Part shown: piece by piece, positions 25,844-63,220 of the stretch
Layout of the letters: every line of letters starts with the position of its first letter
How positions within the stretch are numbered: position 1 is the stretch's first letter
NCBI RefSeq assembly: GCF_000425585.1
Contig: NZ_AUDS01000021.1
Location: 1 to 64,000 of the forward strand
Direction: 5' to 3'
DNA length: 64,000 nt
DNA from: Terrimonas ferruginea DSM 30193
Lineage (GTDB): Bacteria; Bacteroidota; Bacteroidia; Chitinophagales; Chitinophagaceae
Notes under the pieces: model-generated
The model's input: the letters and a program-made list of their open reading frames with translations, nothing else
Database searches by the model: none
What the model was told of the DNA's origin: nothing
Translations under genes and position numbers: made by a program

Positions 25844-25901
25844 TATTCATTCACAATTGACGATTCACTCCCGAGGCTTCGGGATGACGATTCACTTATT
25901 A
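25844..25901. repeat. Heptamer island with GC palindrome between topA and the DUF6263 gene
   Basis: ATTGACG/ATTCACT units surround TCCCGA-GGCT-TCGGGA (25869-25884). Bases 25867-25895 match 33742-33770 in inverted orientation with one difference in 29. The island runs up to the stop codon of the minus-strand lipoprotein gene. Confidence 0.75.
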
Positions 25902-33739: not shown

Positions 33740-33860
33740 CCGTGAATCGTCATCCCGAAGTCTCGGGAGTCAATAAGTCAATAGGTGAATAAGTGAATGA
33801 AATGCGCTCCCTGAGGCCGAAGTATCGGGCCGATACTTCGGCCCCCGAAGGGCTCGAAGG
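33740..33860. repeat. Heptamer and GC-palindrome island between ogt and cdd
   Basis: Begins with the 29-base segment 33742-33770 that matches 25867-25895 inverted (one difference), with TCCCGA-AGTC-TCGGGA inside. AGTCAAT/AGGTGAAT/AAGTGAAT words follow, then a 29-bp palindrome of two 14-bp arms GGCCGAAGTATCGG / CCGATACTTCGGCC (33815-33843), then CCCGAAGGGCTCGAAGG. Confidence 0.8.
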
Positions 33861-61063: not shown

Positions 61064-61087
61064 TTTGTTGGTCTTCAGACCAACAAA
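61064..61087. repeat. Palindrome of the GTTGGTCT family
   Basis: TTTGTTGGTCT-TC-AGACCAACAAA, two perfect 11-bp arms, between the convergent NTF2-like gene and accA. A related palindrome is at 63055-63076. Confidence 0.8.
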
Positions 61088-61144: not shown

Positions 61145-62122
61145 TTATGCAGGCACCTCATCCCAGAATCCCATTTTGCTGAACTTCTCGATGCGTTGCG
61201 TTATGCGCTCCTGCGCTGGTATTTCGCGCAGTTGACGGATAACCGGCACAAGATGTTCTTTGAGGATGCGGGCAGATTCATCATAATCCCAATGCGCACC
61301 GCCGGCTGGTTCGGGAATGATGCCATCGATCAGACCGAAGCCCAGCATTTTATCGCCGGTGAGTTTGAGTTGTTCGGCCGCAATTTCTTTTTGCGCCCAG
61401 CTGCGCCAGAGAATAGTGCTGCAGTTTTCGGGAGAGATAACGGTGTACCATGAATTTTCCATCATGAATACACGGTCGCCAACGCCGATACCGAGTGCGC
61501 CGCCGCTGGCACCTTCACCGATGATCACGCAGATCACGGGAACGGTGAGCCGCATCATTTCATAAATATTGCGGGCGATAGCTTCGCCTTGTCCGCGTTC
61601 TTCGGCTTCGAGGCCGGGGAATGCGCCGGGGGTATCGATGAGGGTGATGATGGGTTTATTGAATTTCTCCGCGAGTTTCATGAGGCGGAGGGCTTTGCGG
61701 TAGCCTTCGGGGTTGGCCATACCGAAATTGCGGAGCTGTCGCATTTTGGTATTGATGCCTTTTTGCTGACCAATGATCATCACAGTTTCGCCGTCTAGGT
61801 TGGCAAATCCGCCTACCATGGCTTTATCGTCTTTCACATTGCGGTCGCCGAAGAGTTCCACGAATTGCGTGGTCATCTTCTGAATGTATTTCATCGTATA
61901 AGGGCGGTCCGGGTGACGGCTTAGTTGCACGCGTTGCCAACTGCTGAGCTGGCTGGTCAGTTCTGTGCGTTTATCGAGGATCTTTTGTTCGAGTATATTG
62001 ATCTGCTCACCGAGGTCGAGGTGGTGTTTGTCCTGGCGGGCTTTGGTGATCTCGATCTCTTCGATGAGATCTTTGATCGGTTTTTCAAAGTCCAGGAATT
62101 GTCTGTTGGCGTTACTGGGCAT
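61145..62122 (-). CDS. accA: Acetyl-CoA carboxylase carboxyltransferase subunit alpha
   Basis: A 325-residue subunit of acetyl-CoA carboxylase, which with AccD transfers carboxyl from biotin to acetyl-CoA for fatty acid synthesis. Family blocks: '[17 protein letters not shown]', [19 protein letters not shown], '[19 protein letters not shown]' and '[19 protein letters not shown]'. accD is not in the window. The N-terminus is the usual coiled region [15 protein letters not shown]. Confidence 0.96.
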
Positions 62123-62296: not shown

Positions 62297-62370
62297 GGAT
62301 CGGTAGTTCAGTTGGTTAGAATGCCGCCCTGTCACGGCGGAGGTCGCGGGTTCGAGTCCCGTCCGGTCCG
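62297..62370 (+). tRNA. tRNA-Asp (GTC)
   Basis: A complete cloverleaf: acceptor GGATCGG / CCGGTCC with one G-T pair, anticodon stem CCGCC / GGCGG (62324-62328 and 62336-62340), loop CTGTCAC with GTC at 62331-62333, T-arm CGGGTTCGAGTCCCG. The 3' CCA is not encoded. Its 3' half is repeated, in decayed form, 410 bp downstream. Confidence 0.95.
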
Positions 62371-62373
62371 CAG

Positions 62374-62402
62374 AAAGCCCTCTTAATCAGAGGGCTTTTT
62401 TG
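62374..62402 (+). terminator. Terminator after tRNA-Asp
   Basis: AAAGCCCTC / GAGGGCTTT with a 7-base loop (62374-62398), then TTTT. Confidence 0.9.
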
Positions 62403-62464
62403 TGCGCTGCCTGGTCAATATTTCATTTCTCTGATTTAAAGTCAAAAATTGAAGCGTTTACTGG

Positions 62465-62749
62465 ATGAGTGGGTTTGTCTATATATTAAAAAGCGAAAAT
62501 TCAGCACTGTATTACAAAGGAATTACAGAAGACTACCAACGACGACTGATCGAACATAATTCTGGGAAATCAACTTTTACAGCAAACCACATTCCATGGA
62601 AACTTCTTTACGTGGAAGCACATCCAACTAAACGAGATGCTTTAATCCGCGAAAGAAAACTAAAGGGTTGTAAAAAAGAATATTTTGAATGGTTGGCAAG
62701 TCAACCTACCAACATACTATTGATGCTGCCCGGTCACGGTCTCAGCTAA
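62465..62749 (+). CDS. GIY-YIG nuclease family protein with tRNA-derived C-terminus
   Basis: A 94-residue protein of the UPF0213/YhbQ-like GIY-YIG group. The core reads 'GFVYILKSENSALYYKGIT' (VYI and YKG in place of GIY and YIG), with the conserved Arg in DYQRRLIEHNSG and the Glu of 'LIRERKLKG', so all catalytic positions appear intact. The last codons (LPGHGLS, stop TAA) lie within the tRNA-Asp remnant. Base composition is AT-richer than neighbouring genes. Function: possible homing-type nuclease; not known for this group. Confidence 0.88.
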   Translation: MSGFVYILKSENSALYYKGITEDYQRRLIEHNSGKSTFTANHIPWKLLYVEAHPTKRDALIRERKLKGCKKEYFEWLASQPTNILLMLPGHGLS

Positions 62750-62780
62750 GCCGAGACGGGTTCGAGTCCCGTCCGGTCCG
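62723..62780 (+). pseudogene. Decayed 3' half of tRNA-Asp
   Basis: 62723-62739 matches the anticodon arm of tRNA-Asp (62321-62337) at 15 of 17 bases, with GTCAC retained; a disrupted segment with 8 extra bases follows, and from 62757 the T-arm and acceptor strand are identical. The 5' half is absent, so it cannot be a functional tRNA. Confidence 0.85.
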
Positions 62781-62784
62781 CAGG

Positions 62785-62818
62785 AAGCTTCGAAGAAATT
62801 CGAGGCTTTTTTGTTTTT
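62785..62818 (+). terminator. Terminator after the tRNA-Asp remnant
   Basis: AAGCTTCGAA-GAAA-TTCGAGGCTT (one G-T pair), then TTTTGTTTTT. Different in sequence from the terminator of the intact tRNA, so it is probably the original terminator. Confidence 0.85.
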
Positions 62819-63220
62819 ACATCCTTCGAGAATACCATGCGACATTCATAATCATTTAGTACATACGAATGTTGTTCTTGAAGACACCATAACTATTAGA
62901 AACGTTTATCCCAGGAGTCGCTTTTCATTTTTAAACGTAATGGCGGCGTGAGGTATAAATTAGCGCCCTTGTTCTTCTCCCGGCCAACAGGCAAGCGTCA
63001 GGTAGCTTTGACAGGTTAAGGTCAACTTCGTACATAACTCAAAGATGAGCAGGCCCGTTGGTCTGGAGACCAACGGTGGCGTGATATCGGATTGAGCGGT
63101 TTTATATCTTCCAAACAGTTGTGGTGAAGACACCAACAACGACATGCTTCGCATCTAAAACACCATTCACTATTCACTATTCACTATTCACCATTCACCA
63201 TTCACCATTCACTTATTGAC
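62819..63220. other. Gap of about 400 bp with palindromes and a heptamer array
   Basis: Contains GTTGTTCTTGAAGACACC (about 62871-62888), CCGTTGGTCT-GG-AGACCAACGG (63055-63076), GTTGTGGTG-AAGA-CACCAACAAC (63118-63140), and ATTCACT/ATTCACC heptamers at 63165-63229 that run into the stop of the next gene. A 64-codon minus-strand frame at 62960-63154 shows no protein features. Confidence 0.65.

Follow-up and report, generated by a model that had tools for sequence, protein, structure and literature searches.

A GIY-YIG nuclease gene and a hairpin-broken tRNA-Asp copy in Terrimonas ferruginea: a candidate selfish element built round a tRNA gene

The window analysed here, a stretch of 64,000 nt from Terrimonas ferruginea DSM 30193, contains a single tRNA gene, tRNA-Asp(gtc), found by ARAGORN and confirmed by an Rfam match (E 1.2e-14). 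The accA gene lies on its upstream side in divergent orientation. Downstream, the intact tRNA and its terminator are followed by a gene for a short GIY-YIG nuclease, a broken copy of the tRNA and a second terminator that differs from the first in sequence (Table 1), an order of parts that the original prediction had recognised correctly. The two tRNA sequences form a direct repeat of 32 nt (97% identical, start-to-start spacing 410 bp), and alignment bore out the proposed 410-bp unit, the 15/17 match of the anticodon arm and the run of approx. 27 identical bases. As had also been proposed, the last codons and the stop of the nuclease gene fall within the remnant, the intact tRNA is retained, and the nuclease stands alone: neither another noteworthy ORF nor an integrase was found between the direct repeats. 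Two details had to be revised. The supposed displaced tRNA half is a broken copy of the tRNA but not a plain half, as positions 42–50 are replaced by a hairpin; this 17-nt stem-loop, TCTCAGCTAAGCCGAGA, stands where 8 extra bases had been counted. The anticodon arm is interrupted, as was claimed, on its 3' side in tRNA-Asp. Searches with NCBIfam, Rfam, PADLOC and PHROGs returned no other family. The palindrome GTTGGTCTNNAGACCAAC flanks the element on both sides (61067–61084 and 63057–63074; 0.02 expected in the window), and a run of ATTCACN heptamers at 63160–63213 resembles the repeats around dispersed palindromes described below.

Table 1. Features of the tRNA-Asp locus (window coordinates)
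Feature	Position	Strand	Basis
accA, outside the element; neighbour gene used for synteny of occupied and empty sites	61145..62122	-	
Intact tRNA-Asp (gtc)	62297..62371	+	ARAGORN, Rfam
First terminator hairpin, 3' of intact tRNA-Asp	62374..62398	+	Perfect 9-bp stem, then T run
Stand-alone GIY-YIG nuclease ORF, 94 aa	62465..62749	+	ORF, PF01541, AlphaFold2 and fold match
Broken copy, tRNA-Asp positions 25–41, 15/17 identical (88%)	62723..62739	+	
17-nt stem-loop TCTCAGCTAAGCCGAGA replacing tRNA-Asp positions 42–50	62740..62756	+	Homologous hairpins in relatives
Broken copy, tRNA-Asp positions 51–75, 100% identical	62757..62781	+	
Second terminator-like hairpin with T run	62784..62813	+	

The nuclease matches PF01541 (GIY-YIG) with E 7.7e-15, and residues Y6, Y17, G19, R27, and E63, which we take to be catalytic, are among the positions invariant across 23 homologues. 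The nearest solved folds to its AlphaFold2 model (pLDDT 91.7, pTM 0.82) are 1zg2 (UPF0213 protein BH0048; E 8.2e-05) and, next, the structure-specific Slx1. Of the gene pairs whose pS exceeds 0.05, the five closest, which include two genes of one T. ferruginea tRNA-Pro array, have dN/dS of 0.04–0.10; in the other 22 pairs, which are near saturation, it is mostly 0.2 to 0.6. The T. ferruginea genome holds three further genes of the family, all adjoining tRNAs (Pro, Pro, and Leu).

The original prediction had called for empty sites in related genomes, and these were found. In the sole other genome of the genus that was compared, that of a sister species (G298), accA is accompanied by one intact tRNA-Asp and one terminator, without a nuclease. 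Among 30 accA-linked tRNA-Asp loci from seven genera, the window included, 11 carry the nuclease gene (decayed in at least two), one carries hairpin units only, and 18 are empty, some of these being called from short downstream sequence (85 bp in G219 and 134 bp in G257). Empty and occupied sites coexist inside genera, and in one genome (G295) the accA site is empty but an element lies approx. 10 kb away. A single tRNA-Asp match was obtained in 31 of 40 genomes. T. ferruginea has a second tRNA-Asp at C14:82389, and positions 51–75 of the broken copy together with the second terminator match that locus at 98.4% over 62 bp; among 41 tRNA-Asp terminators, two rows of which are one site, the C14:82389 terminator is also the nearest to the second terminator of the window (score 32). 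The further expectation that an empty site would carry this second terminator found weak support: the terminator of the empty site in G298 scores 18.0 against it and 7.5 against the first, but a terminator from another genus reaches 17.75. The comparison weakly suggests that the second terminator is the original one.

Taken alone, TCTCAGCTAAGCCGAGA is unremarkable: its stem has one A.C mismatch, its DNA-fold z is -0.51 (-1.56 for the whole remnant), and it is single-copy in the T. ferruginea genome at up to two mismatches. Its importance is visible only through comparison with relatives, in which broken tRNA-Asp copies usually end at position 38 or 41, continue with a TCYC...GRGA hairpin and restart at position 51, the stem sequences varying among lineages with pairing kept. 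The pattern CTGTCA-(14 to 44)-CGGGTTCGAG is present in 21 of 298 genomes of the order, and its reversed control in five, once each. Four of these matches (L045, L048, L056, and L057), which have neither hairpin nor tRNA, were judged to be due to chance. In the remaining 17, the insert is a TCYC...GRGA hairpin; the nuclease lies at the same locus in 14 of them (one locus, cut by a contig end, was recognised by eye), and a full nuclease is absent from the hairpin-tRNA-Asp locus in three. The strict insert form occurs in 38 of 74 nuclease loci, the other 36 including other isotypes, contig ends, and other break points. Pairing was assessed in 34 distinct tRNA-Asp hairpins, retained out of 41 inserts by a cut-off of at least five outer pairs (G-T allowed), the window hairpin not being among them. 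Outer pairs T-A, C-G, Y-R, and C-G are unbroken, and the variable pairs 5–7 are 94% Watson-Crick; in 2000 shuffles this value averaged 50% and never exceeded 66%. Because of the cut-off, selection accounts for part of the pairing at positions 1–5, but it does not touch pairs 6 and 7, which are 94% and 97% Watson-Crick.

The same arrangement recurs at other tRNA genes, as the original prediction had anticipated. A profile search of the order gave at least one match in 173 of 298 genomes. Forty matches were picked by hand in roughly listed order, irrespective of tRNA linkage, with places already seen and a few contig starts skipped and some sister genomes included; 32 of them have an intact tRNA within 600 bp, on the same strand in 32/32. 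A broken copy of the adjoining tRNA is present in 31 of the 40, with a hairpin at the break in 26, or 24 if L346 and L353, whose hairpins are A/T-rich or terminator-like, are left out. At least nine isotypes are represented (Ser, Arg, Val, Lys, Met, Ala, Asn, Pro, and Asp). Four of the eight matches that have no intact tRNA nearby lie near contig ends. A second set, drawn with 11 closer homologues and hence biased to tRNA-Asp, comprises 79 nuclease loci, or 74 after removal of five duplicates (at least one array, L026 and L103, is still doubled, and the unrelated L120 is included). A same-strand intact tRNA lies within 1 kb in 56 of the 74, one of which has an opposite-strand tRNA as well. The other 18 consist of six with less than 1 kb of upstream sequence, two arrays, L120, and nine loci separated from an intact tRNA; on that side of the nine, a Phage_integrase gene is present in three and an integrase arm-binding domain in one. 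At these four (L021, L074, L084, and L096), integrase-type genes stand beside displaced tRNA-Asp 3' ends next to the nuclease elements, and islands seem, from this layout, to have entered the same tRNA and parted it from the element.

The elements were seen in Bacteroidota and reach Ignavibacteria, KSB1, and candidate phyla: six of the seven loci of the second set that are outside Bacteroidota adjoin a tRNA (one in KSB1, two in Ignavibacteria, and three in candidate-phylum genomes), the seventh being L120. The association with tRNAs is confined to small GIY-YIG genes in the three genomes surveyed. T. ferruginea (G000) has six GIY-YIG genes, four small and two in long frames; G235 has seven, four small and three in long frames; and G107 has two, both in long frames. 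All eight small genes are at tRNAs, as against none of the seven in long frames. Broken tRNA segments near tRNAs number 20 in G000 (40 tRNAs; hairpin in 6), 38 in G235 (39 tRNAs; hairpin in 27, though a few of these look like terminators), and 2 in the nuclease-free G107 (33 of 40 tRNAs surveyed; hairpin in 0); under a stricter hairpin rule the counts are 5, 27, and 0. Terminators included among the hairpins of this survey are those of L242 and probably L245. Reversed tRNAs used as control queries gave 0, 3, and 1 segments in G000, G235, and G107, and other tRNAs 3, 3, and 1. Chance was rejected on the recurrence of the arrangement, on the strand agreement of 32/32, on these two sets of control queries and on the reversed-pattern controls. 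Two loci have peculiar tRNA neighbourhoods. At L115 (Patescibacteria, tRNA-Gln), a broken tRNA-Gln is split in two, with the nuclease and a complete intact tRNA in the gap, and the junctions, read by eye, form an apparent long-range inverted repeat. At L350 (G035), ARAGORN reports a tRNA with a stop anticodon next to a nuclease element that has broken copies; in the related locus L347 this place is taken by tRNA-Gln.

Hairpin-tRNA copies are also found apart from the nuclease. Two nuclease-bearing genomes hold such copies at other tRNAs, and none was found in the sole nuclease-free genome surveyed (G107, 33 of 40 tRNAs). By eye, tRNA-Phe, Pro, Met, Leu, and Val of T. ferruginea have hairpin copies at places where no nuclease was found. 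In G235, other hairpins take the place of the T-arm in five tRNA-Pro units that are visible downstream, and of the anticodon arm in four tRNA-Cys units. The hairpin CCCCACAN(2-6)TGTGGGG occurs in 6 of 22 genomes, with 0 matches to the reversed control in all of them; its context was read in four, G140 (two copies) and G095 (one) making up the rest. All five copies in G269 are at five tandem units only, and the single copy in G201 is at the element. Six of seven copies in G235 lie in broken tRNA-Asp, tRNA-Arg, and tRNA-Leu beside the intact genes, no nuclease being found at the Arg and Leu loci, and all three copies in G295 lie in broken tRNA-Asp and tRNA-Arg. The broken tRNA-Arg copy at L191 (G235) starts with GCCTTGTAG and ends with CTACAAGGC, as if closed by a stem of its own (by eye). 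The array of G269 (C3:42288-44002) consists of five tandem 365-bp units, every one of which contains both a nuclease gene and a hairpin-tRNA copy. G255 has three tandem units of approx. 98 bp without a nuclease and, at another tRNA-Asp, an apparent C-terminal stub of the nuclease (E 0.02).

A family of palindromes, TCCCGA..TCGGGA, has 66 members in T. ferruginea (reversed control 1). Since these lie mostly away from tRNAs, palindromes can spread without tRNA linkage. Two are in the window, at 25869–25884 and 33753–33768, and several copies are inside ATTCAC/GTGAAT-type repeats. Among 16 genomes, the shorter CCCGA..TCGGG is overrepresented in several, though not in every one (184 vs 15 in G000; 14 vs 23 in G034). 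In a test for target duplication around 19 dispersed hairpins, a repeat of at least 9 bp was present at 5, as against 5.3% of control positions; these counts support no reading, because many of the sites are in ATTCAC-type repeats and two are doubled (L291/L292 overlap).

The nucleases are sorted by the tRNA that they adjoin. On a tree of 82 proteins, isotype, with labels assigned by hand and Asp as the default even at fragment-only loci, requires 9 changes (minimum 8; shuffled mean 14.9; 0/200 shuffles as low), and the 58 tRNA-Asp nucleases form one group (SH-aLRT 98). On a tree of 34 proteins, restricted to single-class loci (34 rows, the window placed by eye), hairpin classes of our own definition require 7 changes (minimum 5; shuffled mean 19.2; 0/200). 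Both trees are built on few columns, and both kinds of clustering are confounded with host relatedness; nuclease clade can be said to follow tRNA isotype and hairpin class, possibly in part because the hosts are related.

We consider it an even chance that these loci represent a selfish element built round a tRNA gene and composed of an isotype-specialised GIY-YIG nuclease and a hairpin-substituted partial tRNA copy. Its architecture and distribution were observed directly: the arrangement recurs, its presence is patchy and some orthologous sites are empty, units are amplified in tandem, some copies have no nuclease, dN/dS of the nuclease is low in close pairs, and pairing is maintained in the tRNA-Asp hairpins; cleavage and mobility are what we infer from the sequences. 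In downstream units, tRNA 51–75 comes first, followed by the terminator, the nuclease where there is one, the tRNA as far as 38/41, and the hairpin; upstream units run tRNA 51–61, promoter side, tRNA 1–38, hairpin. From this order, and with some help from the tandem arrays, both types may be read as a hairpin-broken tRNA plus one flank that recombined onto the intact gene within one tRNA half. In the proposed mechanism, the UPF0213/Slx1-like nuclease would nick or cut the hairpin, or the tRNA arm that the hairpin replaces, and the break would be repaired by recombination through the flanking tRNA halves, the 3' half giving downstream units and the 5' half upstream units. Each event would add or amplify a unit of hairpin, tRNA part, and flank, sometimes with the nuclease gene. 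One intact tRNA would be left after every event; cells whose sole working copy was hit by the hairpin would die, and nuclease-free copies at other tRNAs would have moved in trans.

Among the alternatives, classic intronless homing is unlikely, though likelier than the others. The arm of a tRNA gene without interruption would then be the site that the nuclease cuts, the hairpin would be a scar that blocks cutting of the element's own copy, and the tRNA 3' part on the element would restore the gene, as in fungal mitochondrial mobile ORFs. Empty sites at accA-tRNA-Asp loci and break positions fixed per isotype agree with this, as does, weakly, the resemblance of the second terminator to that of the empty site in G298, and there are precedents in SegB, which acts in a tRNA region (PMC2988022), and in the mobile ORFs (PMC3630166). 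However, a passive scar need not stay paired, and the stems do; the intact tRNA would remain a target; and hairpin families common to different tRNAs of one genome are left unexplained. As regards resistance to cutting, the nearby broken copy is without positions 42–50, yet intact tRNA-Asp persists. Recognition of the hairpin by the nuclease is preferred over a passive scar because pairing is kept and the hairpin follows the nuclease clade, and the fold agrees. As the intact tRNA, a possible target, adjoins the nuclease, self-cutting must somehow be avoided. It is improbable that we are dealing with REP-like palindromes which enter sites of any kind independently and do no harm in spare tRNA copies, with the GIY-YIG gene as a passenger or repair enzyme. 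The excess of TCCCGA..TCGGGA in T. ferruginea and of CCCGA..TCGGG in several of the 16 genomes speaks for such palindromes, but the nuclease is linked to a tRNA and its broken copy, its clades track isotype and hairpin class, and the hairpins of G269, G201, G235, and G295 are nearly restricted to broken tRNA copies. Dispersed REP sequences as the sole cause were rejected for TCTCAGCTAAGCCGAGA, present in one copy, and for the hairpins of G269 and G201, but not for the TCCCGA family.

Purifying selection on the nuclease and retention of tRNA strand and terminators would also suit a function for the host, such as decoy tRNA fragments that, partnered by the nuclease, protect against tRNA-cutting toxins or phages. 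This is very improbable: the distribution is patchy, the acceptor 5' strand is missing from many copies, and the PADLOC defence library gave no match. It is scarcely credible that the loci are ordinary scars left at tRNA 3' ends by islands that carry an integrase. The nine nuclease loci without a nearby intact tRNA, three with Phage_integrase and one with an arm-binding domain, fit this view, and because integrase-type genes lie on that side in four of them, at least some of these apparent jumps are explained by islands; relocation of the element at the nine is doubted for the same reason. Islands account for the separated loci but not for the hairpins, the 38/41–51 positions or the upstream units, most loci show hairpin-substituted copies without integrases, and the window has none between its repeats.

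The original prediction had not included the recurring hairpin that marks the second copy, nor the nuclease-free hairpin copies at other tRNAs, and its idea of one minimal unit has to be given up because many such loci exist. With matches in 173 of 298 genomes, and with 32 of 40 sampled matches at tRNAs, small elements of this kind may be common and have escaped notice so far. It offers a testable model of a parasite housed in an essential, often single-copy gene without killing its host, and a set of small nucleases that divide by tRNA isotype, the genome sequence itself showing their presumed targets and the hairpins that match them. Annotated tRNA pseudogene arrays and the tRNA-derived C-termini of short GIY-YIG ORFs may likewise share one origin. 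More tentatively, and somewhat short of an even chance, the elements form a separate class of bacterial mobile element. Its GIY-YIG nucleases, each specific to one tRNA isotype, would recognise the hairpin typical of their lineage and transfer tRNA fragments marked by it, both in cis and in trans, to places within or next to tRNA genes, and a functional tRNA would be kept every time. Such a class would be a nuclease-driven counterpart of REP/RAYT living in the most essential genes of the cell.

REP palindromes with RAYT are short, form lineage-specific families, and are found with and without the gene. Hairpin-tRNA copies resemble them in being short palindromes that differ among lineages and occur with and without a gene; the REP/RAYT protein, however, is a Y1 transposase, whereas the protein linked here is a GIY-YIG nuclease and the hairpins sit in tRNA copies. 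UPF0213 and Slx1 nucleases provide the nearest solved folds and, to our knowledge, are not tied to tRNA copies; likewise, we know of no hairpin-substituted tRNA copies for SegB, mitochondrial mobile ORFs (mORFs) or REP/RAYT. Judged by title and start of abstract, the open-licence PMC literature gave no match for GIY-YIG with UPF0213 and no description of the arrangement. Features by which homing endonucleases are recognised are present, namely a homing-family domain with active-site residues and the same locus with and without the gene. The full defining set of any known family is not found in the element. SegB of T-even phages (T4) is a free-standing GIY-YIG endonuclease encoded between tRNA-Arg and tRNA-Ile, with the tRNA intergenic region as its target; it is like the window element a stand-alone GIY-YIG gene outside introns, but the available part of its account mentions no hairpin-substituted tRNA copies, nuclease-free arrays or isotype sorting (PMC2988022). 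In fungal mitochondrial mORFs (Glomus genes, Allomyces atp6), the endonuclease gene arrives together with a 3' gene part, which reconstitutes the host gene and takes the place of the native 3' part, the latter being displaced (PMC3630166). Those are protein genes of mitochondria that receive a foreign C-terminus, whereas the window has a tRNA gene whose displaced copy contains a hairpin; the carried part is not recognisably foreign, positions 51–75 being identical in both copies. In its working mode, the element probably resembles homing or REP-type mobility.
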